Source: Dysidea avara
Lineage: Eukaryota; Porifera; Demospongiae; Dictyoceratida; Dysideidae
DNA: 64,000 nucleotides
Assembly: GCF_963678975.1 (NCBI RefSeq)
Contig: NC_089281.1
Coordinates: 6,721,277 to 6,785,276, forward strand
Reading direction: 5' to 3'
The notes beneath the pieces are model-generated. The model saw nothing but the letters and a program-made list of their open reading frames with translations, was not told the origin of the DNA and searched no databases. Each line of letters opens with the position of its first letter. Position 1 is the stretch's first letter. The position numbers and the translations under genes were made by a program. Positions 27,373-52,986 of the stretch are shown here, piece after piece.

Positions 27373-27690
27373 TCACAAGTGGGTGTCAGCTATTGAGATA
27401 CGTCTCAGTTCATAATGTTCTGATGATGATGGCTTTGTTGTGTCAGTCTCATCAGTGGCATTAGTTGCATATGACTCCCGTATGCCTTCTTCCATTGAGT
27501 ATGATCCACCTGTCTTCAGCATGAACATGATGTCGTCAAGGTGAGAGTCTTCTTGGTCGGTTGGCGGGCTGACCGGACGATGCTTGGCAATGCTGCTATG
27601 GAAGGATTCATTGCCCACTGATGATCCATGTTGACTTTGATCCCATTCCTCTTGTAACTGTAGACACAATGTAGTGGGTGTGTTATACAT
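27373..27690 (-). other. ADGRV1-like cytoplasmic tail with DTHL PDZ ligand
   Basis: The last exon begins LQEEWDQSQHG and is rich in Ser, Thr, Asp and Glu. It ends RRISIADTHL before TGA at 27,373-27,375. T at -2 and L at 0 make a class I PDZ-binding motif. From memory, vertebrate ADGRV1 and usherin end in the same DTHL and bind whirlin and harmonin PDZ domains. The join from the previous exon (SADQ to LQEE) is in phase 0. Confidence 0.8.
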
Positions 27691-27795
27691 GTGCGTAATA
27701 GTGGTAGTACGAAATGCGAGTGTTGTGTGTATTATGCTGTATTGCCTCTAATTACAGCAAATTCCTGGTCCCATTTTAGTCGCCAGAATTACAAC

Positions 27796-27826
<31 letters not shown>

Positions 27827-28960
27827 ATGAGTAAAAACCAGATCTCAAATGAATGCTGTGAGGGGGCATAGGAAAAGGGACCTATAGAGACTTTTTAAAC
27901 TTATGAGTAAAAGTCAGTAAATTTCCATTTATTGATAGGTAATTATAGTAAATTATATACATTAGGAAATTACACTTGTATTTAAATTCTTCATAACTTT
28001 ATGAAACAATTGTGTATTGATTTGAAATATGAATAGCCCCCCTCACATATACAGTATCATCAACTATAATGCTAATGTTAAAGTGATTTGTAAAATATGG
28101 TGATAAAACATCAAGGAGAGTATAACACTGAATGCATTAGCAAAATATAAATGCCAGCCTCTTTCAGTGGATGAGGTGAAAGTAGCAATACAGTATACGT
28201 TTGTTGAGTGTGTGTATAGAATGTTGTGGTGTGTGTGTGTGTGCGTGCGTGCGTGTGTGTGTATGTGTGTGTGTGTGCTTGCATCCATGCATACATACAT
28301 GCATGCGTGTCAACAAGCTTATTGTAATCACTAATACATTTATGTTGGATAATTAAAGACCATTTGATGTACAGGTCTACAAGAATGAGGAAACTGGAAT
28401 ATAGGCAAGTTCTGTTGCAACACATTATAAACTCAAGAATTATCAAAACCCCTGCCAGGTGTTTAGATTAACTGAAAAGTATGTATCTCTGATGTCATGT
28501 GTAACCAAGCAACTTAATGAACAATGGTTTTGGATACTCTAATAGAAGACTCGATTACTCTAATTGAAAAATGGTCTGATTTGTTTCCCTGATTCATAAG
28601 TACTTGGTAAATTGCTATAAAATATCTATCACAGTATTTATGACTGCTCCTTTTTATACGTATGTGTTATGTGCCTCAGTATCATTCAATAACAACTCTA
28701 ATGTATGTGTGTGTACTAATCATGAGTGCCTCATAAAGTCCTAACCTGATCAGCTGATAGTAGATCTCTTGTTGAGCTAGTGATGGGACCAGCTAGTGTT
28801 TGCTGAGCAACAGGTGGAAGTGGTGTTTGCAGTGGGATGATATCATCTTTAGGAGAATAGCTCTGTTGTTTTCTGAGCATTGTTCTCCAGCTCAGGAAGA
28901 AGTAGACAACAACAGCATATATTGCCTACAAAATAAACGTCATGCAATGCTCACACACAC

Positions 28961-29020
<60 letters not shown>

Positions 29021-32000
29021 GCATGTAATTGAAGACTTGAAATAATACTAGAAGGTATACCGTGCCAAGGTAAGCATGTAGGGAGCCAAATATCCACGGC
29101 AGTGTAATGAGTAAGAAGAACACCAGCATTCGTGGCACTTCTACATTAGTCATGGAGAAAGTTTAAAGAACACAGCAAGCACACTCACAACAGTTACCTC
29201 TGTAGTTGTGGGAATAATAATACAAGTCATCGTATTGTTCCCACTGGTTCCAGAAGATACAGGCATGTGAGAACATCAGTGCCATGCACATTAGACACAG
29301 GACAATTGGTAGAACAGTTGACACAAGAGCTACCCAGTGGTTGGGCATATAGCAACTGTAGTAGAGCAATACGTAAAGATGATAATGATATCTAATAATG
29401 TGTTTCTTACAAATAGTAAGTTGTGTCAAAGTCTCTTCCATAAATTTCACCATTTATATCATCATCAAAGACAAACCTCACAATTAAGATGGTGGCCACT
29501 ACTATTAACACTGGGACTGCCCAGACTATTAGAATGAATCCTAATAAAGGTTCTTTTCCTTCGCTATATCCTAAGAATGTCATCCAGAAGTTGATTGCCT
29601 GGTTGAGCAGAGAAAATTAATATCATGGTTGTGGTTTATGTAATTTACTGACCAGAGCAGCTATCCATGCAAACTGGGCTATGACAGTAAGTTGGGTGAG
29701 AATGGAGAGCACTGTACATCCTGTCTCACTAGCTGAATCTGTTGCCAACATGTTGACTAAGGCTATTGTCTGGAAATGTATAGAAGCAATTAAATCTTTG
29801 TACTATATTGTAAATGATATGACTTACCTGGAAAAGGAATATGGAGATGCAGAGATTGACAAATATTTTTGTTGGTTGTTGCATCTTTTGGTAATACACG
29901 ATGTGCAAGATTATGATAAGAAGCATCACAACCTGTTGTAGCAGAGATACAGTGATCTATGCTATGATTATGAGCAGTTGAAATCCTTACCATCACAGCT
30001 GCACAAGATATGGGTCCAGAAGGTAACCATTCCTTTTCATCATCATCTTGGTCAGTACTTTGGCGAGCTGGTGTAGTTTCCCTGCGGGCAGCAAATTCTC
30101 CAAAAGTTGTGCACTGACACTCAACATAATCAACCGGGAATGCACCATTATCAAGTAACTAATGTGTATAATTGTGATTCTCAGAACATGTCAAATCTTA
30201 TGGCTTACCACTGGAGTACATGAATCATCCATTATCCATCTTCCTGAAGCAGTATTGGTAGCAGGATATTCAAATCGAACACACCTGTGAAGAGGTCCCA
30301 GTTTAATTTCATTAAACAATGAGAACTCTTACTCTTGTCTGGTCACATTGGTCCTCCTGGTGCTGCTACTACTTTCACTATATATTCTGTATGTGAGCGG
30401 AGATGTTCCTGTGACAACTTGGTTTTGAATTCCTATGGAGAGTGAAACACTTCTGAGGTTTGGAGTTGGTGTGAAAAATGTGGCTTGGTTTCGTAGTGTC
30501 AAAAAGTTGACACGGAGGCACTAGAGAAAAAAATTACAAATGAAAAACCCAATAGTGTTGCACTTTCTCACATTAGATGTTCCTGATATTGCAGTGCTTG
30601 GTAAAATGAGGTAATCCATTACATCACTAAAGCTGGGATCACGTGATGCAGTAAATCGTTGCTCTCTTAGGGCTTCAGGAGTAGTGTAGGTAAGCTCCAT
30701 GTAGAATGAGCTCCGAGTGTAAAACAAACTACAAATGGCACACATAATAAATTTGTTTAACAAGAGACTTTTGTTTTTACCTGTCTGTTCTTGGACAAGC
30801 ACTACCAACAAGTAATGAGTAGCCAAATTGTTGCAATGAAGTGAAAAACTGACTCTGATATCTGTAGCGATAGTATCGGTATTTTGAATGCAGTGTTATG
30901 AATGATGTTTCAAATCATACCTGAATATATCTGAGGTCAAGATCATGTTATAAATGTCTAATAAGTTGTTCTGTAATGCACCGCTATACCGAAGGTTGTT
31001 AGCTTCTACAACACTTGGGATCCCGTCCAACACCATCTGTACAAGGCTAGACTGCTGTGGGTTTGTACCAACTATCTGTCCTTGGGTTATGATGGCTAAT
31101 AGTGAATTTGCCACACTGCAAAAAATATGAGAGATGGCCAAAGAATAATTAATAGTTCAACTCTCACCTCTCTAATTGAGGCACTGTTGTTGCTAGTTGT
31201 AGTTCTGTGTAAAGACTTAGTAACATTCCCTCCACTGGTGGTGACAAGATGACCAATGCTTGTCCATTTTGTACTTGTCTGTTGATAGAATGATGCAACA
31301 ATCATGATGAAGTCAATAATGATGCTTACATATTAGATCTATTAGCTGCATCTAGTTCAACATAGAACCCTCTGAAATTAGTAACGCTCTGAATATCGAC
31401 TATTGGCACACTGAAGTCAGCGGACGACTGAAATTGATATCACAATGAGACTAACATGATAGTTGCGATAACGTATTACATACCTCTCCTCTGTCCATTC
31501 TAATAGTGTCTCTGATGGCACTATAGTGTTCAGCACCAATTGCTGGTTGTACTGTCAATCCTTGATATGTGAATGATGCACTTGGTGAACGAGTTGTGAT
31601 GGACACTTCCCCTATTAGTAGTACTCCTCTGATTCTTTCTATTACTAGTTGTGCTGCACTACCACTAGTGATCACAGTGGTTCTGAGAGAAGTTAAATTA
31701 CTTGAGCTACTTTTTAAAAATCTATCATACCTTGAAGTCTGAGAGAACTGAAATAAGGATAGGGGTGATGGTATGACTGTTACAGTTGCAATGTTGTTCA
31801 CAATGTTTATGTCTGGCTGGTTGGAGAATATCTCAACTGTGAACTGTTCTCCATTTTCAGGTACCTATGTTCAAAGTCAATGCAGTAGTATTTTGGTTGC
31901 GCCACACACATGCAACTTACACCAACACTACACACACATTCAATCATTTATACACAATCACGTACACGCTAGAACACAACTTACACTATTTGGTCGGAGT

Positions 32001-35000
32001 TGAAGTTGAATAGTAGCACTGGTTATGTTAGATGCTAAAGAGACACTTCCGGAAGACTCAACTAACAGATCATCCACTGTCACAGTATGGGAAACTGCTG
32101 GATCCAGTACAGTTCTCCAGTTTATCTGAACAGTTCCAAACAACCCAGGCTCTCTGACTACAGTAATGGTTCTTGTTGGGGACTGCTCTTCATCCAATTC
32201 TAATGTCAATGGTGTTAAGGAGAATACACCACCAGGGTAATCATTGGATCTGATCGACACTTCAAAAGTTGTCTGCAATGTGACAATAGATATAAATTAT
32301 GATATAGTTGAGCTTACAGCTGTGCCAGCTAACAAAGCTCCTCCTGAAGGATTGGTCAGCTCTAGAGTGAAGTATTCCAGTAGTTCTGGGACATCATCAT
32401 CTAACACACGTAGGAGGATGAACTGTTCTATTATCCCACTCTGTGAAGTAACACAATTTTAACTACATCACTCTGTTAGTTAAATATTTTCAAACTTACC
32501 TCAAAAACTAGAGTCTCACTATATGACTCATAATCTAATCCTGATGTGGCTGTTGCAGCAGTACCTAAAGATCACAACAAAATTTTGCTACATGAATTTT
32601 GATGAGTACATTTCTAATTCTTACTGGTGTCTGTTCCTATTCTCCCATCTACAGTTCTAACCATCACTTCAACACGACCAAAGCTTCCTCCACCACGTGC
32701 AACAATAGCTTGTACCAGTGGAGAACCATCTTCTGCTACTGATGATCCACTGCTGGTGAACTGGAAGATACCACTACCTCCTTCGTCATCTGCTATAACA
32801 ACTTGACTGTTGAGCATGCTTGAAGCTAGTCTTGGTGAAGACACTCGGCCTAACAATGTCACATATGTAGCACTTGTAACAATGTTTGGTTGTATAACAT
32901 ACTTTGTACAGCTGGAACTCTTTCAACACTGGTCAAGTTAAATTGGAACACTTTTGGTGATCCTATTACATTGTTATCACCCAGTGGAATTGTTATGGTT
33001 CCAGTGGTCATGCCATCGGCAATTACAACAGTGAGTGATGTGGTGGGGAAATCAATCACAGCCTGTGCTGGGCTCTGGTTTGTTCCTACTTGTGTAACAG
33101 CACTTGCTATCCCAGTAACCATGATGTCTCCACGAGAACCAAATCGACGCCACACAGTTACATTAGCCTGTGTTATTATACAATACAAAATCGGCTTATA
33201 ATAAGATCTATTGTGATCCTTACATTCCTTCCTTCAGTTCCTATGTAGCTTGTGTGCGATAGTTGTACTACACCATAGGGCTCAATAGTTGATATTGCTG
33301 CCTCTCGTCGAACCCCAGCAGCAAATCCTGGTATCTGTGACAGTACAGACAGCTGGACACCGAAGATCTCTGCCTGTCCATGTGGGACCCTTGCCACAGC
33401 CTACAATTATAATTTAATAAAGTTGGTATGATCTTTTAAATCCTTACTGTAAGAGAAAATGATGCTGTTGAGTCTGTTGGTTGCATTTCAATGCTACCAG
33501 TGATTGGGACAATTGATCCATTTTCAACACCAGCTAATTGATTAGACCCTGTCGTCCAAACTACTTGAATTACACCAACTTGTCCGAATCGATTGATTGT
33601 CAGTTGAACGTTATTTGTGGTTACAGCTGTAACACACACTGTCATGCTATTCCACAATGCACTTGTGGTACGTACCATCATTGACTGAAGCCTCAATAGA
33701 AACATCATCAAATCCTATCAAGGGGTTAGCCACCTGCTCAGTAATCATTGCCATAGTGGACCCAAACAGAGAGGAGATCTCAGGAGTAGAGTCACTCCCT
33801 TAACACATCATACACAAACAGTGATAAATTACCTCATATGATAACTCACTGTACCTGATGAGTCACTTAGGGTTGCATTAGTGATAGTAATGTTAAAAGC
33901 TGCTCCAAATGATAAAAATGCATCCACAGCAATTGGGAGACTCAATGATTGCTGCTGCACACCATCAGCAAATGTGATAAGTGATGTAGCAGGCACATAC
34001 ATAGCTCCAGGAAGCTAAGGAAGTTTATGTAGATTGTAATTCACATCTTGACATTTAGATTTTACCTGATCGTAATACATCAATATGCTAACTATTACAG
34101 TTCCTTGACTGCCAAACTGTCTGGAAATGGTAAAGTTTAGTTGTCTAGAAGTGGCTGACCCTAGTCCACTAGTGGCAACCACTGCACTTCCCACCACAAA
34201 TACTCCATGAGGAGCATCATTGGATCTATAGAAAAGATAAATTACAACACACTAACTATGAGTGGCTTACCCAATTGTGAATGTTGATGTGAGTCGGTCA
34301 CTTAGTTCAGCACCACCTTCAACCCTTGTGATTACAACCATAAACACTTCAGCCATTTCTGGTATATCCTCAGACAAAATACTTATATCAATAGAGCCTC
34401 GCACTTGACCATCTAGTATAGTGGCTGAACCATTAACTGGTGTTATGTCCAACTGAAGGCCAGGAGGTCCTTCTACTACAAAGAAAACCTATTAGGAGAT
34501 AAGATAAAATCTTACTTTCCTACAACAGCAATAAGATACATACTTGCATGGTGCCTGTGTCTCCTCCAGTACGGCCAATTGGTAAGGAAATATTAACTGG
34601 TGCATTTGGGTCTTCCATGAAATTTTGAGGCTGTAGTGCTTCTCCCACAAACCCCACTGTCCCAAATGGATTTCCACGTTGACGAATCTAAGTAAATGCA
34701 TAACTTAAATGCTTAAAAGATTATGTGGCAAGTACACTCACAGTTAATGTGGTAGTATCTGCTGATGGATCAATGATAGCATCACCTGAAGCTAACAGGA
34801 GTCTGACTGTGTATACTTCTTCTGCTTCTGGTGCAGCATCAGGGAGAACTGTCACTTGAAGAGTACGAGTGACACTGTCAAGGAATTTGAATAATAAAAC
34901 ACTGACTATTATTATTATTTAATTTGGGTCATACATTTGTTCTGATCCAAATGAAACAAATCCTTGTAGAGTGGCAGGATCAATATCATCACTTTCTCTT

Positions 35001-38000
35001 CCTGGCGAGGGACCTGTTACCATCCACTGAACAACTGTGGCTCCAATGTTTCCACCATCTCTTTCCACAGTGAAACTTACATGCAGTACTCCCTGACCAG
35101 GGGATGGGTTTTGTATTATCACTCCTGCTTGTGATTCAACTGCAAATCTAATTACTCCATTTGGATCATCACTGGGCTCAATTATAACAGCTGCTACAGT
35201 AATTCCAGCTATAGACGCTCCACCGGTGGCACCAGTCAACTGCACAAAGAATTGCTCCTGAAGTTCAGGGAGGGTATCATCACGTATGGGTATCATTATG
35301 GAAGCCACTTCCTGTCCTTGTGTAAACACCAGTTCACCTTGCAGACTAGCTACAAAATAGTCTTCTCCATTACCTCTGGCACTACCATCAGTTATGTTAT
35401 ATCGTACACTAATGTCTCCAAATGTGCCACCTGATCTGGTCAAGTTTATGTATGCAGTCTGTCCCTCTACAGCTGGAAACATGTTAGTATCAAGTGACAC
35501 TATGCCTCTAGCATTGTCACTTTCCAATATGGTTATCTCTAGTTGATCAACAGTACCCAATATGGGAGGCATATCAATGAGATTACTGTCTCCAACAAAT
35601 GTGAAGCCTCTCAAGTCATCAAAACTGTCCAGTAACTCCACTGACAACAGTCTCACAATAAACGTCTCGTCTAATTCTGGCTCGTCATCATTAATAATAC
35701 TCACTTGAATTTCACCCATTGCAACTCTGTCTGCTATAGTTAGAGCTGAAAAGTATACAACATTAATAAGTATTATTTGGTGTCTATTATATCCTTACAA
35801 TTTTCTGTAGACTGGTAATCACTGCCTGCTACAGCAGACATAGACTCTACTGAATAGTTGACTCTGACTGTACCAATGATGCCAGCATTGCGTGGTACTG
35901 GTATAGTTATAACACCAGACCCTTCCTGAGTCTCTCGAAAGGGTGGAGCTTGGAATTGTATCACACCATGAGGGTAATCACTGGAAGCTACAATCACTTC
36001 TACTTCAGTTTCATTTGTATTAATTGCTAATCGTCCTTGTAATGATGACACCAGGGCAAGTGTGTACTGTCTGGCTATTTCAGGATTGCTATCTTGCAGG
36101 GTCTGTAGTTGTATCAGTTATTGGCCATGAATGTAAACACTGTACATTTACTTACTGAAACAGTGAAATTTGCTGATTGCTGTCCATTGAGCAAAGTAAC
36201 TGAGTCACTAACAATCTGAAATGTGTTAGTGTCCATCGGAGCCAGCTGCCAAACAACAGAAACTTCTCCCAATGTTCCAGCACTCCGAAGAATTCTAGAA
36301 AAATAACATTATGCATGTGGGACAATAGCATTGTGTTTTAGCATACGTGGCAGTAAAGTCTTCTCCCTCATTCACCACTATTCCCAAAGGATATGACTCA
36401 AATCCAAGTATTCCCATTGGATCATTACTTGCAGAAATGACTATGCTTGCTGACTGAGGTGCTGATAGTCTACCACCATTGCTAGCAGATAATAGAGACA
36501 CAGTATAGCTCTCAGATGGTTCAGGTTGGTTGTCACTAATGGCTCGGAGAATAAATTGCTGTTCAGTGATATTCTAAAAGTGATTTGTGAATAATCAAAA
36601 TTGTGTTTATACCAAAAGTTTTTTTCATTACCTCTGGAAAGACAAGAGTTCCACTGTCTGGCTCCAGGTCATCTCTTCCATCACTATTCACTGCCCACTC
36701 AACTACAACAGTTCCTACAAATGATGTTCTACGCATCACCCTGAAGGTTGCCACTTCTGACGAGTTGTCCATAGACTCTGGAATCAGCAGCTACAAACAA
36801 ACACAACATTACCCACCATATAGTTAGAAATAGTTTCATACCACTAAAGTGTCAAGTGCAAAAGTGAATACTCCATTGACGTCATCATTTCTGAGTATGG
36901 TGACAGTAAATGTACCATTATCACCCACTCTGGCTCCCCCAGTTGGTTGAACAATGGAGATCTCAAAAGTCTAATAGGAAAACTAACATGTGATAAACTT
37001 CAAGCAGATACACACTCACTTCTTCTGATTCAGGAATGGCATCATTTACAATGGTCACTATGAACTGAGTAGTGTTTTGTCCTTCTCTAAACTCCAGCGG
37101 TCCCATGTCTACATTATAGTCCATACCCCCACCAACAGCAGTAATTGAGGTGGTAGCAATACTACAGCCCACAATTCCAGTTGTGCCAGCACTACGTGTG
37201 ACAGTGACTGTGAATGTTCTGATGTTTTCAGGAACTCCGACTGTCCCCTCAAAATTCTGAACACCAAACAACAGATAAGTCACTATTACTTGTGGTTTAG
37301 TATGTTAGCTCACCAAGTCTACAACAAAGTTAAGGATTCCTCTTGCATTATCATTTTCGTTTATTTGTATCTCTGCATTTTCAGCATCAGGAAGAGCTCT
37401 CGGTGATAGTGAGTCTTCTCCCAAGGTCCCATCAGCCAGTGTCACATTGGTTATGCTGACAAAGAATGTCTCCATAATTTCCGGCACGTCATCCTGTGCA
37501 GGAATAATGAATAAATTAGTGTTTAGCTTGTCCATAACTTACTGGCAGGATGGTTACACTGATTGTAGTTGAAGTAACATTTTCCATCATTTCAACTGTA
37601 CTTGATGTGAAGGTATAATCCTCCCCAGCTATTGCTGAGGCATCAACAGTGCTACAGAAAGTGAAACATGGTTTACATAGTCATTATCCTGTCTTACAGA
37701 CCTGTATGTGATAAGGATGTCTCCAATGGCTCCTGATAATCTGATTAGTGCCAGCTCCACAACTACTGCAGTATCATTTGGTTCAGGAATCATAACAAGT
37801 AAAGATGCTGAATCCCATGTAATTTGACCATGAGGGAAGTCATTGGCTGCTACACTAATAACTGCTGTCATAGTTGCATCATCAATATATGCCCCTTGGA
37901 CTTCTCCTTCTCTTTGCAATGTCATGCTATCAACACCATCAACTGTAACTTCAGTCAGTACAACTTCAGTTATTTCAGTCAGTTCTGGTAAATTATCAGC

Positions 38001-41000
38001 TTGTATCATTAAAACAATGTTGTCTTCCATAGCACCATCAGGAAATACTACCTATAATCTCAATCAATTTTATGCTACATTTAGATTTAATTCATACCTC
38101 TCCACTAGAAGGATGGATTTCACCTCCAGTGTGGTCCCCTCTTAATTCCCAATTAACATGAACTTGTCCAATTGTTCCGTTACGTCGCTCTACAGTGAGA
38201 ACTACTGTACCATTCTGTTGTAATTCTTGTACTATCAGTGATTGTGAAGACTGAAAAATATGGATTTAGTTTTTTTGCTTTATTCTGTTATTTATTCAAC
38301 ACTTACCTGAGCAAAACCAACTATTCCATGTGCATTGTCATTAGTACGAATTCCAACTATCATAGAGTTGTTTGCCCCAAGCTGTGCCCCACCTGTAGGT
38401 ACTGACAGAAAGACTTGAAATGCTTCCAATGTTTCTGGAATATCATCTTCCAAAATTGTCACAATAAACGTCATGTTTGTTTCATCTTCTGCAAACATCA
38501 GTACTTCTGATCTGTAGACAAATAAACAATGTGTGTAACTATTGTATTACAGCAAGCTATAAGCATGATAGATACCCAGGGGACTTTAACCATTCTAAAA
38601 ACTCTCCCACCATTGTGTCCACCATGACTTACTCATCAAGATAATCTTGTCCTGGCATGGTATCACCACCAAGTGGTCTTATGCCCCATGTGACACTGAC
38701 TTCTCCAAATGTTCCAAATGACCGCAACACAAGAAATTCCACTTCTTCCTGAGTCTCATTAATTAATACAACTGCTAGTCCACCATCAGTTATACTACAA
38801 AAATATTATGTTCAAAGAAAAACGTATAAACTATGTAATATCAATCAACTCACGATCCATCTGTCATCAATTCAAATACTCCATAAGGATTGTCATTGGG
38901 TAATATGGTGATGTCTGCTACAATATCAGATTCATCTAACTGGCCACCACCAGTTACTTCAGTGAGTTGGACACTGTAGGTTTCATTTAGTTCAGGGATA
39001 CCATCTGACACTGCAGTAAGTTCTAGTGTCTAAAAATCACATACACTAACACTGCTGCTATATAACAGTCCTATAATACAGACCATGCTATCCACTCCAG
39101 CTTCAAATACGATTCCACCCATAGCAGGTGTTATTTCTGAAAAGATTGGAGAACTGTGTGTACACTTGTATACTTTATGGAATGTTCATTCGTACCATCA
39201 GCTCCACTGGCTTCTACTTCATACAGAACAGTGATTCTTCCAAATGACCCTCTGTTACGTCTGATTTCTAATTCAACTGTTTTAGAAAACATGTATTGTG
39301 CATAAAAGAACATGATACTTTGTGCTAGTTACTGACCGATTTGTGACTCTTCTACTTCAAATGATGTTAATACAAAACTGATAACTCCATTTGGATCATC
39401 ATTAGCTTCAATAGTAACCACAGCTACAAGAGAAATTCATGTTTTTAAATGGTTTCAGACTTGCAACTAGTGACATACTTTGATTGAATGTTCCTAAAGT
39501 CGCCCCTCCCATGGGATTATTTAATTCTACTTGAAATTGTTCATCAATTTCAGGAATATCATCTTGCCCAATTCTGATAGGGATTACTTGTTCCATTACA
39601 CCATCTCCAAACACTAATATCTATACCACAGAATGTACGTGCGACACTAGAATAATAAAGATATAAGGAATTTACCCCTGATGTCATTGTGATGTAATCT
39701 GTAGGTAAGCCCATTGCGTTAGTATTGATGTTTATGACTCCATATAGCACTGAAACTTCCCCAAATACTCCTCTGCTTCTCAGTACCGTGAGATTAAACT
39801 GACCAATATCTTCACTGACCCTACAGTGAAGACAATAATGATGGTACATGTGTGCATGTTTTGATCAAATAACTTACCTAAAAGATTGGGCAGAGAAGCC
39901 TATTTCTCCTTGAGGACTATCATTTGGGGTCACTTCCACTTGTGAGATGTTGGCATTTCCTAATGCTGGAGGTATGGTATCTGGTATGTTGTCTACAAGT
40001 TGTACATCGGTGAGTTGAACAATAAATACTTCAGTGAGTTCTGGAATATCATCCTATAAATGATATAAATGTCTTTTAAATGTATCTCCAAATTTGTCAT
40101 TACTAACATCAATTAAAGGGACTTGTATAACAGTCGACGCTTGTCTGTCTTGAAGTATCACACTTTGCGTGCTTGAATTAAAGTCTTCACCAGAGGTGGC
40201 AAGTGACTGGCCACTGCTGAGAGGTGATAGGCTACCTTCTTGTGCTTCAAAGCTAACCATAATAGCACCTACAGAGAATCTATGCATTCAACATAGTTAT
40301 ATAATACTGTACTTTACCTATTGTTCCAAACATCCTCATGACTGTGAGTTCAAGAGTTGCAGCTTCATCTGTTACTATATCAAGTGAACTAGCCTGAAAC
40401 TCTACAATTCCATGTGGGTTGTTGCTTGCTCGGATTGTTATGATAGCAATGGAAGATGTTTGATCCAGTACGGCAACTCCACCACTGGATGATATGTCAG
40501 TAGAAAGTGTTTCCACTGATGTAATGTTGACAGTGTATGGTTCAGAAATCTCGGCCGTAGCATCAGCCAAGACTTCCAAAATAATGGAGGTTGTATCTTC
40601 ACCCTGCAAAATTTCACACATCAAAATCTGTATAGTTAATGATAAGAAGAGTGCATGATTTTAGTATTAAATGCTATTACTGAGAGAATGAACTCGTAAT
40701 GTTGTTATTTGTGTGCTAACCTCATTAAATACAGCTGAACCAGTTATGTTAACAAACTCAGCAGAGACATCAGGACCAGTTACTTCCCATGTGATTCTCA
40801 CTCTTCCCAGGCTACTCACAGTTCTAACAGCTGTTAAATTTACTTGTTCACCTTCGCTGACTACAGCTGATCGTGAGAAAGGGCCAAAGCCCACAACACC
40901 AGCAGCCCTGTCATTAGCCATGATGGTAACAACAACTCGGCCTCCATCCCCATCTGCAATACTTGCACCTCCAGTCACTCCAGTTAATTGCACAATAATG

Positions 41001-44000
41001 TCTTCATTCCTTTCAGGGATGTCATCTTCCAGGATAGACAGAATGATGATAGAGCTATCCATGCCATCTTGGAAAGTGATGGAAGCGCCAGAGGCCATAT
41101 AATCTTGTCCAGCTGTGGCAGTACTTCCAGTTATTTGCCATGACACCACCACATTGCCAATAGTTCCGCCCAATCGCCTCACTGTCAATGTGACTGCAAG
41201 ATTATCTGATTCTGGTACTGTGATCACATTCATGTCAGTGTTGGCGTACAAGAAGAATTCTCCACGTGCATCGTCATTTTCAAGGATTATCACATCAGCA
41301 CTGGACAATGATCCAATCTGAGGTTCATTCTCTGCTAACACAGTTCTGCCAACTACTTGAACTGAATTTAGCACCACAATAAAAGTTTCATTTAATTCTG
41401 GTGTAATATCATCCATAGTGTTTACAGAAATTTCTCCTACATTAATCCCAGCTGGTATTGTTGTACTTGCATTAGTAGTAACAGTAAAGTCATCGTGGGT
41501 AGCTTGTGAACGCTCTAGTGGTCTCACCTGCAGAAAATAAATATCAAGATTCATAGTTATACTTATAAAGATTTGTATGTACCATGTCACTGTCTTTTTC
41601 ATAATACTGTACTCCACTTGATGAGACACTATTCTCTGAATTCCTGGAAACAGCATAGAGGACACATGACCTGGCAGTAGTATCTAATCCAAATGACTGG
41701 CAAGCTCTCCGAGACAAGCACTGTGAGGAACATGTCATCAAAGCACTTGACCCAAGATTGCTAAAGCTTCCAATGCTCGATCCCATAATTGTTATGTCTG
41801 CAACTGGAGGCAAAAAGTAGTCAGTGACAGCTCTTCCAGTTCTCTCAGCCAAAACTGTTAAGTCCAGTGTACGAACAGTGTAAAATATCTCCAAGTCCCC
41901 AAATGCACCAAAACTGAAGAAAAAAAATAATGAAGTTGCAAGTACATTCTTTCGTGTACCTTCTTTGTAGTGTTAGCAATGAAACATTCCCTTCTTCAGT
42001 TGTATAACTTCCTTGAGAAAACATGACTGTTCCATATGGGTTATCATTAGCTACAATGGTTATAGTTGCTTGAGAATTTGAAGTAATGCGAACTCCACCA
42101 GTTGGATTATGCAGTTCAACAGTAAAGACCTACAAAATAAGTGCATAATTTCAGACATACCTAAAACTACAGTGTATCTAACCTCATCATCTTCAGGAAT
42201 ATTGTCTGGCTGAATTTCTAGTGTAATAGTTCTCTCCCTCATATCTGTGATAAACTGAACTGAACCACTAATTGGTTGAATATCTGCGGCTGGATTTGAC
42301 CCTGAAAAAATTTCAATAAATAATTAAATATTTGCTACTAACATTTAATAACCTTCAACTCTTGTTAACCGCCATTGTGCTGACACTACTCCAACAGAAC
42401 CTCCAATTCTGTTAACAGTCAGTGTTATCATATTTGTTCCAGCTGCCTCCATCGCATTTGTCACTATCCTACTACCACCAGCAAACTCTGCAATTACCAT
42501 CAGTACATAAAACTCCTGTATACAAATACTGTAAGGGAATACCTAGTGCTCCATTAGGATCATCATTGGCTAAGATGGTCACTGTAGTTGTCAGTATTCC
42601 ATCTAACCTAGCACCTCCAGAAACACTAGTTAGACTGACTGTAAAACTCTCAGAAAACTCAGGAACATTGTCGTCAATAGTATCCAGTGAAATTGTGCCT
42701 TCATTTTGTTGATCAAAAATGTTAAGGACACCTACTATAGGTCTGAAATCACTGAAGTCAGCAGTGCCAATGGTTGTCATCCATTGAACAGTGATCTGCA
42801 TGAAAGTGATCAAACACCAAATCATTTTCATGACCACTAGCATCAACTCACATCTCCAAAAGTTCCGGCAGATCGTATAACAGTGAGGAACCGTTCTGTG
42901 TTAGGTTCTGTGGTATTAAATTCAGCACTAGAAAACTGTACAACTCCTCTAGCATCATCATTCTCTGCTATTATGATTTCTGCCACTGAAGAGTCTCCGT
43001 CTATTCTTACACCGGTAGCTGCATAAAGAAGGAATACAATACCACTCAAGTTGTATTCAGCAAAATTTCCTCACCATTTCCTCCAGAGCCACCTTCTTGG
43101 AACAGATATGCACCAGTTAATCTGATGAACACACTTTCATCCAGCTCAGGAAAATCATCACTATAGATGGTAATTGCAATGTTGGCTGATGTTTGACTTG
43201 CTTCGAAGATTATTTGGCCTTCGTCTGCTTCATAATCTGCTCCAGCTGTCGCAAGACTGTATGAAAATGATAATATTCACTTCACTAGTACAAATATTTG
43301 CCTCTACTCACTTGTCAGGGTCTCTGTTGACCTGCATTGGATTTGTCAGTAAAGTAGCATAATTAACAACAACCCTTTCTATTGTTCCAAACAGCCTGTC
43401 AACTGTGACATTCATGCTGGTTATATTTTCAGAAACACGCAATGGTCTAAATGCTGGCGGGAAACTGAATACTCCATAAGGATCATCACTGGCTTGAACA
43501 GTAATCACTGCTTCAGTGTTTCCCATGTTACTCAGTCTACCTCCCCCAGTAACATTTACTAAAGCAATAGTGACCATCTCATCTAACTCAGGAAGCTGCA
43601 TGGGTTGTAAACAAACAGTTTAATATGCACAGAAGACATGAATAGCTCTACCTGATCTTCCAGAATGGTCACAGTAAAACTATTTTCATTTTGGCTAATC
43701 GTAAAGTTGATACTGCCAGCAGAAGGCACAACATCTTCTGCAAACTGTTGTGCTTCCCAGTACACAGTAACTTCTCCAAGGTCTCCACCCATTCGCTGAA
43801 CAGTAAATGTTACTTGTGTGCTGGGAGCTTCCTCTACCACTTGAGATAGACTATCTGTGTTAAATGAAAATACTCCAAAAGCATCATCACTAGGTTCAAT
43901 CTGAATTGTTATGCGACTTCCTATACCAAGTGATGGAGCTTGAGGATCTGTAATGCAAATAAGATACTAAATAATATGAGATTTATAGAACTCACTTCCT

Positions 44001-47000
44001 GAGGGATTAGATAATTCAACATTGAATGTTTTTAGTAGTTCGGGAATGCTGTCATCATTGAGAACAATATCTATGTTCTGTGCTCGAACACCGGGAGGAA
44101 AGTTTAAAGTGCCTACATTAGTTTGATAGTCAGGTCGTACTCCAGATGCTATTGCAGTTCCGTCAACTGTCTGGTACTCCACACTGACTGTTCCCTCACT
44201 ACCTTGGGCTCTCACAACATACAACCTTATTGTACCATTCTCTTCCATTACACTTAATACAGGAGATTCAGTGGCTGCTGGAACAAATGGATCCCCTGGA
44301 GCTGGGGGTGAAGAAGTTGTAAACTGTAGTAGACCATAAGGGTGATCGTTTTCTTCCACAGTGACAGCTACTTGTGCATTGGTAGCTGATATACTGGCAC
44401 CACTAGTGTCTGTTGAACTGGTCTCGTTGTCAAGTGCAACAGCAGACACTAGGACTATGTTGAAATTCTCTGCTAACTCAGGGATAGTTTCATTCACAAC
44501 CATAACATCAAATGTCTGCAAAGTAAATAAGTGTAATATTCAAGTGTTACATAGTTAATACAAAGTCTTACTGCATTGGAAACTTGTGGGTCAAAAACTA
44601 TCTCATCAGTGGAGGGGTAAAAGTCACCAGTAGATAATGGTCGGACTTCCCATGTCACCAACACTGACCCAAAACTACCTCCCACTCTGACCACCTCAAA
44701 TGATAGCGTGTCAGCTTCATTAGCCATCCTTGAAACTAGTGATTCAGTGGCAAAAGCAAATTGTCCATTGGCTCTATCACTCTTTAGAACTACATGGTCA
44801 AATATTATAATCGATAATTGTGACTCATTGTGTAGTTGTGTACCTGTTAAACTGGCTTGACTATTTGGTCTTTCAATGATTCTTCCTTTGCTACTGGAGA
44901 ATCCAAGAGCGACCACCAATGGGGTGTTTGGCTCAGCAATATCATCATTTATTGACATCACAGTGATACTCTGTATATCAACATCTTGCTGGTACTGCAG
45001 GTAGCCAGTGATTGGAGTAACATGGGCAGCTGCACCATCACCAGAAAGTAATACTATATCACTGGAGTGGAGCACCATAATTATATGTGACTTGTAATAG
45101 TAAAACTCGAGCCACTTACTCAGTGCTCAAAGCGGAGGAATAGAATCGTGCATCTTGCATAGCACCAACAAAAGTACCTCCACCAACTACAAATTCTGAA
45201 CCATTAACATCTACTACTGCACCACTCAAAGTCCTGAAATAAATGATGATATTACAGTCAAGTAAAATATAAGTTCACCTTGTTGCCACATTGTCACCAT
45301 CAAAATAAATTTTAGCTATCGTTTGAGTTATGGTCACTGCTATATGATGAAAATTTCCATCTTCCAATTGTGACTCTACAATTCTAGATGATTCAACAAC
45401 AGCAGTGCTGAATACCTAATACAACAGTGTTGCTTCAATTAGCTACACATATGTAATAGATACATACTGTTGTGCCAGTTTGATAGGTGTATTCAAACTG
45501 TATTTGGTAGTTCCCTGAATCAAAAATTAACGATAAGCTGAAGGGTGTACGACTACCCAGAGTTCTTTTGGTCATCAAGAGACCAGACAGAGTTGGCATT
45601 ACCCATACACTGATTGAGAAGCTGCCTGCCACACTTGGTGTATAGAAATCCATTACAATTGCACTACCTGTAATGTCAACAATACTTAAACAACTATTAA
45701 TGGTAGTATACTCTCACTGTTTGAGTCATCAAACTGGTATGCTGTTGTATTTGTATTGGGACGTCCTGTCAACATTATGACAGAAGCAGTTGTAGATGCC
45801 AATAGTAAGTCAGTAAACATTGGTAGCATTGCTCCACTTTCAGGGAGGACTTCCCATACAACCTGCAAGAGTTACACCCATAATATGAATGTAATGTAAA
45901 GCTCTATCTGAAGTATTTACCATCACATTGCCAAATGTGCCTTGATTCCTGTTAACATCCAAGTCAACCATTCTTGACCCACCAGCTGGAATGTCTTCAG
46001 GAATTTCCACATCTCGTGAAGAAGCTTCAAACTCATATGCACCAAAAGGATCATCATTTTCTAGTATTGTTACACTAGCTACCATTCCACTGGAAGCAAA
46101 TGATCCTGAATTAACATTCAATAGCCGGAATTCAAACAATTCCGTAAGTTCTGGCACAACATCATCTATTACATTAAACTCAATTAGCTGATAACTTTCA
46201 TCCTCAGGAAAAGTGAGTGTCCCAAATGTAATTGAAATGTCTTCACCAGAAACAACCGACTGATCAAGATTATTGAATACACCCCACGTCACTGTAGAAT
46301 TTCCAAAAGTACCTCTAGTTCGGTTTACTCTAAATAAGCACATACATAAGCATTAGCAGTCAATACAGGCAACACTATTGGTCTCTTACCCTAGCTGATT
46401 TCCTTCATCCCCTTCCATCAAATTAAGAGAAGTTACAGTGAACAAGAACACACCATAAGGATCATCATTTTCCGTTATGTCTATTGTGATAATTCTGGGC
46501 TGGACAATAACAGCATCACCTACATGTGAAGCAGTGTAAGTTGCATACTTAACACTGAAGCACATACAGTTTAGCACATACCTGTTGTATTTACTAATTC
46601 TAATGTGAAGCGTTCTGCTATCTCGGGAACGTCATCATTCGTAATGTTAAGAGATATCTCAGCTTCTCTTATTCCACTTGTAAACATCACTTCATAAGTA
46701 GACAGCAAATCTACATCATCACTTGCAGCAGTCAGAAAAGAGAACTCAAATGTTGCTGTGGCTAATCCATTTGCTTGTCCGCCACGTGTCACACGGATAG
46801 ATACTTCATCTCCTTCATTGACTGACAGAGAGCTCCTTGTAAAAGAAATTGGATCATCATTTTGTAGGATAGTTAACCGGGCCTCAGCACTGTTGAGATC
46901 AAGCCTTCCAAGATTGTTTATGTTCAACTCTACTGTAAAAGTTTGATTACCCTCTGGAAGCTGCAAATATGAAAAGAAATGTTGTACTACATACTAATAT

Positions 47001-50000
47001 ACATGGTAACATGTCTTACATTATCTGAAACAGAATCTATGTAAAACATTTCTGTGTTTTGGTTTGCTCTAAACAGTACACCTCCTTCTGTGGGTGATAT
47101 ATCTGATGTAGCATTCACAACAGTCCAATTTACTATAACATCTTCAAACAACCCTTGCATTCTTTGGACAGTAAACACTGCCCGGTATGGGGTGATATCA
47201 CCACCAAAATCAGGTGGAATTTCAGCTATACAATAGAAATGTGAAGGTCAATAGCTATAGCTACTTTGTCAAATGCTATGTGTGTGCAGTGGCTTACCAA
47301 TAGCAACTTGAAGAGAGTCTTGTGCAAATGAAAAAATGCCATTAGCATCATCATTTTTGGCAATGATAATATCTACCGTTGTCCTGTTACCCAGAAGGTT
47401 TGTGTTGCCATCTAACTGAGACAGTTGTATGCTATATGTTTCATCAATCTGGATTTTAATAGTTTAATATTTACAAATCATCTGCATTAATTAGCTGCAT
47501 ACTTCAGGAGTTGTATCATCTACTGCTATGATATTGATCAGATATGAAGTTTGTCGACTTGAGAATGTAGCCAATCCAGTAGCACCAATGAGATCCGTTT
47601 GACCTATTCAAATTGTACTTTGTGCATGGCTAATAATGATAGATATCAAGCTACCTACCAATAGGACTGGTCTGATATGAGATTGATACTTCACTTAGTG
47701 AACCTCCAATTCTTTCAATAGCAAGAGTTATCACTCTTGTATTGGATTCCTAGAATGTACATAGTTGAATGATATTCATACAATGTATCCTTCCACTTAC
47801 ATTCACCCTATGTGGACCAGCTGTACTAACAGCAAACTGAAACACTCCATCAGGATTATCATTACGAGATATAGTAATGGTTGATGTATTCTAACATTTA
47901 CATATCAGTACTGACTACATACAGCAAGTTGGTGCTTACATCGCTAGAGCTGATACGCTGATTTGGTTGAGTGACAAAATTTAATGCTACTTGAAACTGC
48001 TCATCAATTTCTGGCTCATCATCTCCCTGAATGGCTAGTGGGATGGTTACATTGTTGGAACCTGTGTTCATATAATATATATAAGTAAAGGTTAATATGA
48101 TACATTCCCTCTACTAACCTGAAGGGATTGTGACTGGCCCCCCTGTCCCAGCAATATCTGATGTAAGATTGAAATCTGTACTGATTCCTATTGCACTCCA
48201 GAACACTGTTGCATCTCCTGAAAAGCCACTTCGAGTTATCACCAAGTTGACAGGGGCTAATAGCTGTAGTTCTGGCTCCATAGCAGTTACCATGAGTGAC
48301 TGTGTAGTAAATTTGATTTCTCCATTTGCAGCCTCTTGTGGTACTGAAATAAACAGACTTGACCGAATCCCAATCCTTGGAGACAACAGTTGTGATCTTG
48401 GTATCAAAGTGCTTGCTAAAAATAAGTTTATATACTACAGTACAAATAAATATGCACCTCTTGTCACTTACATGAAGACAACAAGACTCCTGTAATATTT
48501 ATCCAGAAAAATCCTTCTTGCTCTAAAAATGCATTAGTTGCTATGTTTACCTCAACAGTCATTTCAGTTTGACCACCAAGCATATTTACTGAGTTAGCTT
48601 GGTTAGTGAACACTGATGTATCACCATTAGCAGGATCTGTTATGCCAGGTGGTAGGTAAACAGCAGTATATTCCACAGTAATCACTCCTTCACTACCCCC
48701 ATATCGAATAATTGTCAGCTCCAGTCTGCGAGGCTCCTAAAAGAAATTATGTGTGAATACCAGTCACAAATTTAATGATGACTTACTGGATTGACTCGGA
48801 GCTGACTTTCGGCACCCCATTCTATTCTGCCATAAGCATCATCACTATCCCGCACTGTCAATGATACTATACGTTCATTTTCTGCCCCTAGTCTCCCAGT
48901 TCCTTCTACCACAGCATTTAGCATAACCGTGAACAGTTCAGGTATTTCAGGATCAGAATCATCAAATGCTGTAATTTCTAACACAGCTTGTGACTGTCTG
49001 TGTGGTATAGTAATAGTTCCATTAGGTGGCATGAAATCAGATTCAGCTGGATTATTATTGTTATCCACCACAGTCCATGTAACAGTGATGTCCCCATTAG
49101 TACCAACAGTTCGTTGCACAGTGAACATGGCTGTTGTGCCGTCACTGCCATCTTCAGAAATAATTACACCTGCAACGTGGTTAGGAAATTTCACCAACTT
49201 ATAATAAAAATGCTACACAGTGAAGATGACTTTAAACACACGCCTTAATTCCCTTGACTTACATACAAATACAACATACTTATACTTACAATTTATCATT
49301 GTCACACATGCAAATGAAATCCTTTGACTACTACAGCACAACCATAATGAGGAAATACAGTTCATTACACCACTAAACAAACTTTTCATTAGTGCCAAAG
49401 GTATCAGCTAAGGCAATGCAGGCACTTGGAATAATCAAGAGGACCTAAACAAAGAATCCCTTTCTGCTAGCTTACAAACCTTAGATTAGACCATACTTGG
49501 AGTATTGTGTTCAGCTCTGAAACCCTTATTTAGTTAAAGACATTGACATATTAAAGAAAGTCCAAAGCAGAGCTACTGTACTTGTAAAGAATATTGCTAC
49601 TTTACCATATGAGGACAGATTAAGATATCTTGATTTGTACTCATTATATTGTCGAAGGAAGAGAGGCCTGGGAGATCATATAGAAACTTTCAAAATCTTA
49701 AACTCAATGACATCTATTAACCCAGAGTCCTTTTACCCTATTTAGTGAAACATGAACAAGATGACTCACACTAAAGTATATAAGAACAGATTTTCTTTGG
49801 CATCTACCCAGAACTTTCTAACTAGTTAATGATTGAACTTCTTACCTGAAGAGGTCATTTCAGTAAATTCCATTTCTATGTTTAGGAACTTGTTAGATAA
49901 GTAGCACTGGCATAATCTAGGATATGGACTTATAATAGGCCAGTGGCCTAAATGTATACTTGATTGTATATATGATTATAATAGTAATAATTGTACTGGA

Positions 50001-52986
50001 CAAAATTTGTATGGAGAAGGTTAAAAATAATAACATTAAATGATGAAACACTACATCATGATACTGCTAACCTGCTGTAGACACAAATGAGACTATTCCA
50101 CCAGCATCATCAGACACTTCTATTATAACCATCGTAGTGGAGGGTGGATATAGCACTGATGATGATCCAGGATCAGACAAGGTTACAAAAAAGTTTTCAT
50201 CTCCTTCTGGGTTAGGATCATCAATAATTACAATCTCCTCAGTCACTGACATAGATCCAGCAGGAAACGTTATTATTGTTTGTTGAGTAGTGTAATCCTG
50301 ACCAGGAGTTGCTGTTCCATTCATTGTACTTAATGTTACGTTTGTAGCTATGTTGATTGGTCCCACTTGTGTACCATCTTCTAACAACCCTCTAGTAACA
50401 GTTAGGCTAACTGTACCATCAGATTCTGACACTCTGTACTCTGATTGGCTAAATCGAATGGGACTATCGTTTTCCAGAATGGTTAGCATAGCTTCAGTAT
50501 CTGTAGAGTTTAACATTCCACCTCCTGTGACTGACATCAGTCTAACAGTGAACTGCTCGTTGTTCTCTGGAATATCATCAGCAACAATGAAAACAGTGAT
50601 CTGTTGTGTTGACACCTGATCAGCAAATGTTATTTCACCACTAGTGCGGGTAATATCATCACTGCTGACACCTGATGAAGCTATAATCTGTGAAGGAATA
50701 AAATACATTTTTGGCATTAAGATATACGTATCACAGGGATACATTGGTAATGGTTCATGATTCTAAATGCAATTAATACAGCTAGAGGTTAAAGTCATAC
50801 AATTAATTTCCTGCTTTGATTCTTTTAACTTACATACTTACCTCCCAAGTAACTCCTATTGTACCAAAAGTTCCTGGTCCTCTTAGCACCTGGAAGCTAA
50901 CACCTGTAGTAGTTGCAGTTTCTTCAGCAGTTACTGATAGTGATGCCTGCAAGTGCATATAAATTGTGTTAATACAAGTACATGTACTGTACACACCTGG
51001 TTGAATTGTACACGTCCATTTGGCTCGTCACTTGCTTGGATTACTATTTCTGTTGTATTTGGTGAGCCTACTGCAATTCCAACTGTACTAAAAATCTCAA
51101 TAATAAATGTCTCATTTCCTTCAGGAATGTTGTCATTCACAATTGACAGTGAACCAGAAGCATCTGACACGCCATCATTAAAAAATATACTAGCACTTCC
51201 AGCATGAAAGTCACCAGTAGTTGTATTTGTAACCTGTGTTAAAAATTAATAATAGCAATGTGCTAGCTATAGTGTGAGCACACATGTAGGCATGTGTGTG
51301 TGTGTGCGTACGTGTGTGTGTGCGTGTGTGTGCTTATTATTGGGCACTAGGCTAGTCACTTACCCTTATAAAGGCAAAAGCTGTTCCTGCTGTCCCACCA
51401 GTTCTCTGTAGCGGTATTGCCACAGGAACAGGAGTGGTGCCTGCATCTTCTATGGCTACTATCCTAGACTGTGAGAAGCTGACTTCTTGTTGTGCCTGTG
51501 CTAACCCTCCCAGCAGTACGGTGGTTATCAATGCTGCTGCAAATAAAATACACATATTACAATATAATGAATAGTCACTCTATCAGCTGAGCTAACACAG
51601 AGCTAGGTCAAGGATAATAGATTTAAAAAACAGATGATGTCTTAAGTATATGGCTTTCCATATATCACAAGCCTTATGGCACAGTGACGCTACACTAACT
51701 ATTTCTGTATGAATTTTAATTACAGAGTTTAGGTAATATTATATATAAAGCAGACTGTACAAGATTGTTAGTTATGGTACCCTGCTTGATGGTATATCAT
51801 TTGATTGCTGAGATGCATATAATTTCTACTAAACTGTAACCATGGCAGTGAGTCAGGTAGCTAACCATCACTATAGCTATACAAACACCTTCAAAACATA
51901 TTGAGTTACAATACTTCAATGTTTCGGCATTCAATCACTTATAATCGGAGGCATAGCTACACCTGGGCATATGCCTGGGTATCAGCTCACATTGCTCAGA
52001 CATCAGAAATTGTTATGACATGGCAACCATGCATGGAAATATTATGTTTAATGTCCATGCACAAATTATAACTTGCGATTCTATCCACCACGGCACCACA
52101 GCTTCAAAATAAGTGCAGCCAAGAGTTCGTAATAATATTATATCATACGGAACTCTATATACAACTCTCTATATATTATGAACTCTGAACTATATAATAT
52201 TATGAACTCTTGGTGTGGTGCATTCAAATGAGTCTGATATAATAAACTTATAGACTACTAGTTACCATTTAAACGTGACTCGGATATGCCCACCAAAAAT
52301 GAATGAATCATGATTGTTGCATGCTAGCTCAAACTTTACAGATGGCTGCATATACAGATTTATCTAAGTGGCACTTTTATAAGTTCCTGCTAATAAGTCA
52401 ATTTATGCACATACACAACAGAGTCAACATCTGTAGCTAGCCATGCCATGCACTTGAAAACAGCAATTCATATAGTATGAACACCTATGCATAGGTTCAG
52501 TATAAGGGGGCTAGATACTCCCGGTCCTGCTTTGTTATTGTTGAACCTCATACAGAGTTCAGTGAACATGGTAGAAATTTAACACAGTAAAACTCCTCAG
52601 TTTCAGGACCAACTTGAAGTATTTAGGAAATGTGATTTAATGTAAGTGCAACTTTTATGCATTCGTGCATGGCAAGGTGTCGATCAGCTTAGGCCAGTTA
52701 AGCAGTTAGCACATTCGTCACACTATACTTCTAACCTCTGTTCTGGTTTATATAGTGAATTGACAGAACAGTTGCAATTATCTAATAGGATTATCTCATG
52801 CTGTAGGCGACACGCCCATAGCTAAACATGTATAGTTAGTTAATAGCGTTTGAGAAAAACAAGGTTCCAAACAGCAAGCTAGAGCGATATATAGGCTTGT
52901 TTTATGCAATACATTTATTCCCACACTGTGCAGTGCGTGCGTTATGAGCAATACGTGTACTTACCAAGAAATGGGCGGATCTCCAT
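27373..52986 (-). CDS. ADGRV1: Giant Calx-beta adhesion GPCR, ADGRV1/VLGR1-like
   Basis: One minus-strand gene with dozens of small exons and mostly 50-60-base introns. It starts at 52,986 (MEIRPFL), joins the exon at 51,543-51,360 to give a signal peptide, then runs through about 38 Calx-beta repeats, a LamG-like domain, a PAN-like insert, a GAIN/GPS region, seven helices and a cytoplasmic tail ending DTHL. The Calx-beta repeats show the pattern G(T/S)FG.(V/I).V.W, a (G).L.F..G block, DD.PE..E.F.V.L and NDDP.G...F. In vertebrates this receptor forms ankle links of stereocilia and periciliary membranes with usherin, whirlin and harmonin; Calx-beta domains bind calcium. Product length is several thousand residues. 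Whether the first exon and all small exons are right needs transcript data. An alternative is a Calx-beta adhesin without orthology, but tail, LamG position and 7TM argue against it. Confidence 0.85.
27798..27828. repeat. (AT)n tract in ADGRV1-like intron
   Basis: A TATATA run within the intron between the last two coding exons. The same intron holds TG repeats near 28,230-28,275 and a CATGCATACATACATGCATG stretch near 28,290. It is about 1.05 kb, far longer than most introns of this gene. Confidence 0.7.
28747..29935 (-). other. Seven-transmembrane region of the ADGRV1-like receptor
   Basis: Helices are spread over small exons. TM1-2: VVMLLIIILHIVYY and FVNLCISIFLF (29,840-29,935). TM3: CTVLSILTQLTVIAQFAWI (29,650-29,770), with the extracellular-end Cys. 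TM4 and the second loop: LGFILIVWAVPVLIVVATIL (29,410-29,600). TM5: LVSTVLPIVLCLMCMALMF (29,200-29,340). TM6: FFLLITLPWIFGSL (29,004-29,140). TM7: AIYAVVVYFFLSW (28,850-28,923). The FLL.TL.WIFG block of TM6 is typical of adhesion-class receptors. The basic WRTMLRK follows TM7. Confidence 0.8.
28950..29018. repeat. CA/TG microsatellite abutting a splice donor
   Basis: Read on the gene strand, the TM6 exon ends ...AATTACATGCAG and the intron begins directly with about 30 GT units. The first GT doubles as the 5' splice site. See the separate finding. Confidence 0.85.
30000..30285 (-). other. GPS motif with degenerate cleavage triad
   Basis: The exon at 30,210-30,285 encodes CVRFEYPATNTASGRWIM...SC, and the next (30,000-30,160) gives YVECQCTTFGEFAARRE. 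The two Trp/aromatic and four Cys positions of a GPCR proteolysis site are present. The canonical C-x-C-x-H-L-(T/S) is replaced by CQCTTFG, so the His general base and the Thr/Ser nucleophile are missing. Self-cleavage is therefore unlikely. Confidence 0.75.
30290..31750 (-). other. GAIN-domain region
   Basis: Exons between the last Calx-beta repeat and the GPS encode alternating hydrophobic strands, such as FTPTPNLRSVSLSIGIQNQ near 30,440, and helical segments (LVQMVLDGIPSVVEANNLRY near 31,030). This fits a GAIN domain, though it is too divergent to mark subdomains. Confidence 0.5.
31750..41200 (-). other. C-terminal Calx-beta array, about 20 repeats
   Basis: Consecutive repeats of about 115-140 residues each, with signature segments such as DDIPERNEDIIVQLTGVTGG (near 40,980), DDIPEIDEQFQVEL (39,540), DDVPEIMETFFVSIT (37,470), DDEPELDETFIVRLL (35,660) and DDVPELLEYFTLEL (32,370). 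Exon borders often split each repeat near its middle and end. Repeats nearest the GAIN domain (33,000-34,200) have lost the DD.PE acidic pair, which suggests weaker calcium binding there. Confidence 0.8.
41583..41830 (-). other. PAN/apple-like insert within a Calx-beta repeat
   Basis: After a Calx-beta start (FGAFGDLEIFYTV) the exon encodes CSSQCLSRRACQSFGLD, then C-VLYAVS and GVQYYEKD. The C-x3-C-x5-C-x2-F spacing and final CxLY resemble PAN/apple domains, which bind proteins or sugars. The Calx-beta fold resumes in the next exon (HDDFTV..., DDITPELNETFIVVLNS). Confidence 0.6.
41980..45100 (-). other. Middle Calx-beta array, about 7 repeats
   Basis: Repeats between the LamG-like domain and the PAN insert, for example DDNVPEFSESFTVSLTSVSG (42,660), DDFPELDESVFIRLTG (43,140), DDSIPELLKTFNVEL (44,050) and EDQLPELDEMVTIAL (43,590 and 43,650, spanning an intron). 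Each has the NDDPxG-type linker. The first one after LamG (near 44,940) is atypical, with DDIAEPNTPLVVALG. Confidence 0.8.
45110..45675 (-). other. Laminin-G/pentraxin-like domain
   Basis: Exons encode FYTPSVAGSFSISVWVMPTL, SLSLIFDSGNYQIQFEYTYQ, LEDGNFHHIAVTITQTIAKI with YFDG, and GGGTFVGAMQDARFYSSAL. The order (FSISVWV; FHHIAVTI...IYFDG; GAMQDARFYS..AL) is the concanavalin-like LamG/pentraxin signature. In vertebrate ADGRV1 a single LamG domain likewise lies among the N-terminal Calx-beta repeats. Confidence 0.8.
45690..51545 (-). other. N-terminal Calx-beta array, about 11 repeats
   Basis: It begins with VSFSQSRIVAIEDAGTTPVP just after the signal peptide and proceeds through repeats marked by DNIPEGNETFIIEIFS (51,110), DDIPENNEQFTVRLMS (50,560), DDSDPEIPELFTVML (48,940), DDEPEIDEQFQVALNF (48,010), DDVPEIAERFTLEL (46,620) and DDVVPELTELFEFRLLN (46,150). 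The eleventh runs into the LamG-like domain without a full acidic motif. Confidence 0.8.
49390..49930 (+). mobile_element. Non-LTR retrotransposon relic (reverse transcriptase C-terminus)
   Basis: On the plus strand, inside an ADGRV1-like intron, broken frames read AMQALGIIKR, LVRPYLEYCVQLWNPYL (with single-base changes), DIDILKKVQSRATVLVKNI, DRLRYLDLYSLYCRRKRGD and ETFKILNSM. This is the conserved end of LINE reverse transcriptases (R-P-x-L-E-Y-x-V-x-x-W-x-P, K-V-Q-R-R-A). Stops and a frameshift near 49,470 show it is dead. Confidence 0.75.
51546..52961 (-). other. First intron of the ADGRV1-like gene
   Basis: About 1.4 kb between the seven-codon first exon (52,965-52,986) and the exon finishing the signal peptide. 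It contains an AT-rich stretch with repeated TATATTATGAACTC-type words (52,140-52,210) and no evident coding sequence. It could hold regulatory elements; nothing specific was recognised. Confidence 0.5.

Follow-up and report, generated by a model that had tools for sequence, protein, structure and literature searches.

Human ADGRV1, also called VLGR1, is among the genes of Usher syndrome type 2. VLGR1 was reported in 2016 from both sponges and choanoflagellates, with enrichment in choanocytes in sponges, as in Ephydatia, where two whirlin homologs were also described (PMC4942974). In 2025, the choanoflagellate aGPCR class theta was placed as orthologous to ADGRV by a 7TM tree with 83% support, in a study that also reports N-terminal similarity for a filasterean ADGRV and says that Rhodopsin-family orthologs are missing from sponges (PMC12716839). 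The excerpted text of a 2014 survey of Amphimedon receptors names no VLGR1 ortholog (PMC4302439). On the vertebrate side, human VLGR1b is described with 35 Calx-beta and seven epitempin repeats (PMC9262510), which agrees with the figure of about 35 Calx-beta repeats that the initial annotation of our locus had given for vertebrate ADGRV1. WHRN is reported to bind the ADGRV1 tail via the PBM and via an NTD-binding helix of about 20 residues that lies upstream, DTHL being the PDZ ligand (PMC10039067), and peptides derived from the Stachel, 10 and 11 residues long, are reported to activate VLGR1 given a Gsq chimera (PMC9146371).

The initial annotation had suggested that, if the host is a sponge, the Usher-type receptor would predate nerves and could have a role in choanocytes. 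Because of the 2016 sponge and choanoflagellate report and the 2025 choanoflagellate and filasterean report, that idea was already known (PMC4942974, PMC12716839). We examined the gene behind it in the window, by which we mean the whole 64,000-nucleotide stretch of DNA analysed here, and we conclude that it is real, confidently an ADGRV receptor and of an ordinary kind. Two of its features are unusual, the GPS without H-L-S/T and the lack of an epitempin match. Vertebrate ADGRV1 (9fte_A) is alike in the Calx-beta array, the 7TM subfamily, the tail block and the RRIxIADTHL end. Our likening to Ephydatia VLGR1, a reported sponge ortholog (PMC4942974), and to choanoflagellate theta and filasterean ADGRV, both published relatives (PMC12716839), is by description only.

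A predicted 85-exon receptor gene on the minus strand

A complete ADGRV1-type gene had been claimed on the minus strand at 27373..52986, and we recovered such a gene as a model of 85 predicted exons and 5795 aa, with a CDS at 27373..51555 (-) and predicted splicing. The 3' end stood, with the stop codon ending at 27373, whereas the CDS begins further in than claimed, with an ATG at 51555. This ATG heads the signal peptide that had also been claimed (MCILFAAALITTVLLGGLAQAQ, 51490..51555 (-), identified by eye).

To build the model, we used dynamic programming that scored codon use together with splice signals, with the region itself as the training set. In the adopted version, eleven stretches picked by eye, mostly in the 3' part of the gene, received a bonus, the start was fixed at 51555, and tiny exons were forbidden. 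The first fully unguided run had given 86 exons, missing several TM exons, leaving zero-length exons and splicing out 108 bp that were later recognised as PAN-like. When the bonus was removed, with tables trained on the adopted (and thus favoured) model, 80 of the 85 exons came back identical, the PAN exon included, and the deviations fell in exon 1 and four TM exons. This bonus-free run scored 1564, versus 20.6 for the best plus-strand gene in the same stretch. The 84 predicted introns have a median length of 55 bp (73 of 84 are at most 62 bp), and all 84 are GT-AG by construction of the model.

Along the predicted protein, one open chain runs from a signal peptide through a Calx-beta array with first LamG and then PAN inside it, a cysteine-pattern GPS and 7TM to a PDZ-ligand tail, which bears out the order of parts that had been claimed.

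An ectodomain of Calx-beta repeats with LamG and PAN inside

The Calx-beta array (31251..51483 (-)) was delimited with Pfam and with an in-house profile that had been seeded and iterated on the window gene's own protein. The profile gave 41 hits in the protein, each at i-E <= 1.4e-8, corresponding to 39 or 40 repeats. Hits 19 and 20 add up to a single, cleanly divided repeat (profile positions 1-46 and 47-117) with PAN between them; hits 11 and 12 flank LamG with overlapping profile ranges (1-70 and 49-110), and the count is 39 or 40 because these two may belong to a single interrupted repeat or to two incomplete repeats. The long array that had been claimed is therefore present, with a count somewhat above the stated 38 or so, and vertebrate VLGR1 differs in being described with 35 repeats (PMC9262510).

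With Pfam alone, aa 1-2900 showed 18 Calx-beta stretches, aa 2901-4900 showed 10 and the final 999 aa showed 2, a total of at most 30, since the last two pieces share 104 residues. None of 20 shuffles of the protein gave Calx-beta at i-E < 1e-3, the best value being 0.08, and all 73 hits of a six-frame search (frames of at least 25 aa, i-E <= 0.01) lay on the minus strand within 31329-51579. Leaving aside the LamG and PAN sites, the largest gap between repeats is no more than 30 aa.

As claimed, one LamG domain follows about 11 repeats: Pfam places a single Laminin_G_3 match in the N-terminal third of the protein, at Calx-beta repeat 11 (aa 1330-1469, 45055..45629 (-), E 4.3e-15). Vertebrate ADGRV1 likewise has its LamG in the N-terminal third. 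Further along, a PAN_1/apple domain (aa 2396-2445, 41595..41744 (-)) splits a Calx-beta repeat. Its Pfam match just clears the cut-off (22.3 vs 21.4 bits), and the stretch was retained in two of the three gene-finding runs, one favoured and one not, and partly spliced out in the third. The domain is an addition relative to vertebrate ADGRV1, which to our knowledge lacks PAN, and a search of the open-library literature found no report of PAN in VLGR1. Conversely, epitempin (EPTP/EAR) repeats, of which vertebrate VLGR1 is described with seven (PMC9262510), gave no match at E <= 1 in the predicted protein. Given the added PAN and the lack of an epitempin match, the ectodomain does not simply reproduce that of vertebrates.

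The seven-transmembrane region and tail point to ADGRV

The seven-transmembrane region lies at 28863..30017 (-), within exons 78-84. Pfam 7tm_2 matched it at E 3.6e-11 when the TM part was searched alone, in keeping with the seven helices that had been claimed, and was unlisted at E <= 1 for the last 999-aa piece. Among the aGPCR subfamilies with solved structures, which are those that a PDB comparison covers, the GPS-7TM piece matched ADGRV1 (9fte_A) first at 111.3 bits, with ADGRL3 next at 38.8, and the piece from TM6 to the end matched ADGRV1 at 75.2 bits and others at 15 at most. As a control, the 7TM pieces of two other host genes matched ADGRL3 and ADGRD1 best, and ADGRV1 was not among the 60 matches listed for each, of 100 and of 107 respectively.

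When the window gene was placed in a tree with ADGRV1, ADGRL3, ADGRD1 and seven of 30 host extracts picked for 7TM content, 11 rows in all, its 7TM grouped with ADGRV1 at 100/99; at 2.07 its branch is long, and the tree program issues a warning for rows of this kind. A 7TM region outside the ADGRV family, which the initial annotation had named as the outcome that would count against it, is not what the PDB match and this tree gave. A search of the host genome with the 7TM plus tail found six matches, all at the window locus. The TM4 exon met 183 and 28 pattern stretches in genome and viral contig sets, respectively, none of which was confirmed by tblastn.

The protein ends in ELRRISIADTHL (27376..27411 (-)), where ADGRV1 (9fte) has ELRRIPIADTHL; 11 of these 12 last residues are identical. 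The final SIADTHL contains DTHL, by sequence a class I PDZ ligand, so the PDZ-ligand tail that had been claimed is in place. A block upstream, DDIMFMLKTG (27508..27537 (-)), is the cognate of ADGRV1 DDLIFALKTG, with 7 of 10 residues shared. The claimed ADGRV1 identity is supported by the way the domains are ordered, by the tail, and by the 7TM in both its PDB match and the small tree; on these sequence comparisons we regard membership in ADGRV as well supported.

A GPS that keeps its cysteines and lacks the cleavage residues

The GAIN-position region with its cysteine-pattern GPS (30093..31241 (-)) was recognised by eye. Four Cys and the Trp of the GPS are present, and its letters (CVRFEYPATNTASGRWIMDDSC ... 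CQCTTFGEF) read C-Q-C-T-T-F-G-E-F where C-x-C-x-H-L-T-x-F is expected. The Pfam GPS and GAIN models gave no match even at E <= 10; the length and position of the region fit. A comparison of the GAIN region with PDB gave a nanobody (E 1.3) as its single row. Across 29900-30400, the three reading frames of the minus strand are all without H-L-S/T. The profile searches that had been proposed for this gene matched Calx-beta and LamG and left GAIN unmatched at E <= 10, and the GAIN/GPS that had been claimed fits in its position and its GPS cysteines. This description sets the window GPS against the expected pattern.

Loss of the cleavage residues is not host-wide, because 11 of 30 host 7tm_2 paralog extracts have a visible GPS and each of the 11 keeps HLTSF, some of them being near-copies of each other; the other 19 have no recognisable GPS. 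With the cleavage residues gone, we infer that the window receptor stays uncleaved, in one piece, and that its signalling, if there is any, would proceed without a freed tethered agonist.

The host genome and a harmonin/whirlin-type scaffold

We searched the host genome (550.8 Mb in 108 contigs) with the USH1C_N profile and found one place, C10:26489415-26489609, at 34.6 bits, in a frame that runs on into a PDZ domain. The first match of this NTD-PDZ frame is DLG4, a generic PDZ protein (3.1e-25), and its second is solved harmonin NTD-PDZ1 (E 3e-20), to which it is closer than to the solved KIAA1526 chains. A further scaffold frame, a PDZ2 piece, matches KIAA1526 best (8.3e-12; next 1.4e-8). 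KIAA1526 is, we assume, whirlin, and we take this match to be to whirlin PDZ2. Since DLG4 comes first, NTD-PDZ1 is nearer harmonin and the PDZ2 piece is best to KIAA1526, we call the putative scaffold harmonin/whirlin-type and make no choice between the two.

The initial annotation had suggested an early-branching animal, and a nuclear copy of COX1 supports a non-bilaterian host. COX1 fragments occur on several chromosomes (21 matches, e.g., C8:25954946-25956247). The copy in question reads with code 4: TGA stands for W in three positions, and AGA/AGG stands for R at sites that include PRLNN, TDRN and the second arginine of PRRYSD and that we take to be conserved Arg. This reading disfavours the bilaterian codes; code 4 is also used by cnidarians, placozoans and choanoflagellates. 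A Ser-type silicatein was not seen among 30 Peptidase_C1 loci, whose four distinct active-site exons all carry Cys, an outcome that counts neither for nor against a sponge.

Matches to 7tm_2 in the host genome number at least 153, many of them on C4, C5, C7 and C8, suggesting an expansion of adhesion-type receptors. There are at least 151 Calx-beta matches. Clusters of Calx-beta exons lie on C2, C4, C5, C7, C9, C11 and C15, and these are perhaps, we presume, sponge aggregation-factor genes. Within the window, a scan of nine open frames and one predicted protein identified a FEZ-like exon (25761-26171 (+)) and a Vps54 exon (61254-61706 (+)) flanking the receptor gene. A 260-aa open frame at 19056-19838 (+) resembles RNase_T weakly, its 23.1 bits falling short of the cut-off at 24. 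No RNA family reached its gathering threshold in the window.

Alternative readings of the locus

The evidence described above bears on whether this gene could be something other than a single, uncleaved ADGRV receptor. Our model might have fused two genes, of which one would encode a Calx-beta/LamG matrix protein and the other a 7TM protein. The splice sites are predicted, and the adopted model favoured eleven stretches that lie mostly in the 3' part, so such a fusion is conceivable; yet from exon 69, at the end of the array, to exon 83, which carries TM6-7, the chain stays open and its predicted introns measure 48-59 bp, the run without the bonus recovered 80 of 85 exons, and the order of domains equals that of ADGRV1. 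We consider it very improbable that two genes are involved, and the array and 7TM as separate genes, which the initial annotation had named as grounds for rejecting its claim, sit here in one predicted open chain. An equally slim chance attaches to the idea that an unrelated adhesion GPCR acquired a Calx-beta array by domain shuffling, so that the likeness to ADGRV1 is one of convergent architecture. The abundance of both kinds of exon in the host makes shuffling possible in principle, but it is not the array alone that resembles ADGRV1: the 7TM and the tail are also closest to it, the last 12 residues at 11 of 12.

Somewhat less remote, though still unlikely, is that a wrong splice site led us to misread the GPS of what would then be a normal, self-cleaving ADGRV1, given that a predicted 50-bp intron joins GPS exons 77 and 78. 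However, CQCTTFGEFAARRE lies inside a single open frame (30158..29991), and H-L-S/T occurs nowhere in the three frames of the minus strand across 29900-30400.

A possible mechanical link at microvilli or the collar

We therefore return to a single, putatively uncleaved ADGRV receptor. We think it very likely that this is the ADGRV (VLGR1) of a non-bilaterian, probably a sponge, which would form a fibre at microvilli or the collar and be docked to a scaffold at two points. Its roughly 39 Calx-beta repeats would form a long, calcium-dependent fibre linking neighbouring microvilli or the collar. At the other end of the protein, the terminal DTHL would dock into a PDZ domain of the scaffold. The DD-x-x-F-x-LKTG block, which may be helical, would dock into the scaffold's N-terminal domain, and this two-point docking of the tail would tie the fibre to the actin core. 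We guess that the helix described as binding the NTD (PMC10039067) is this conserved DDxxFxLKTG block. The receptor would remain uncleaved, and any signalling would occur without a freed tethered agonist.

More tentatively, and with the odds against it, self-cleavage and the tethered agonist may have been lost while the two-point whirlin-type dock was kept nearly letter for letter, so that ADGRV1 would have begun as a mechanical microvillar link. If this reading is true, agonist-driven signalling would be a dispensable part of ADGRV1. The locus provides a whole-gene model of a non-bilaterian ADGRV1 in its chromosome context. The degenerate GPS makes it possible to test whether the link function needs cleavage, and the near-identical tail end, together with a harmonin/whirlin-type gene in the same host, makes the age of USH2 docking directly testable.
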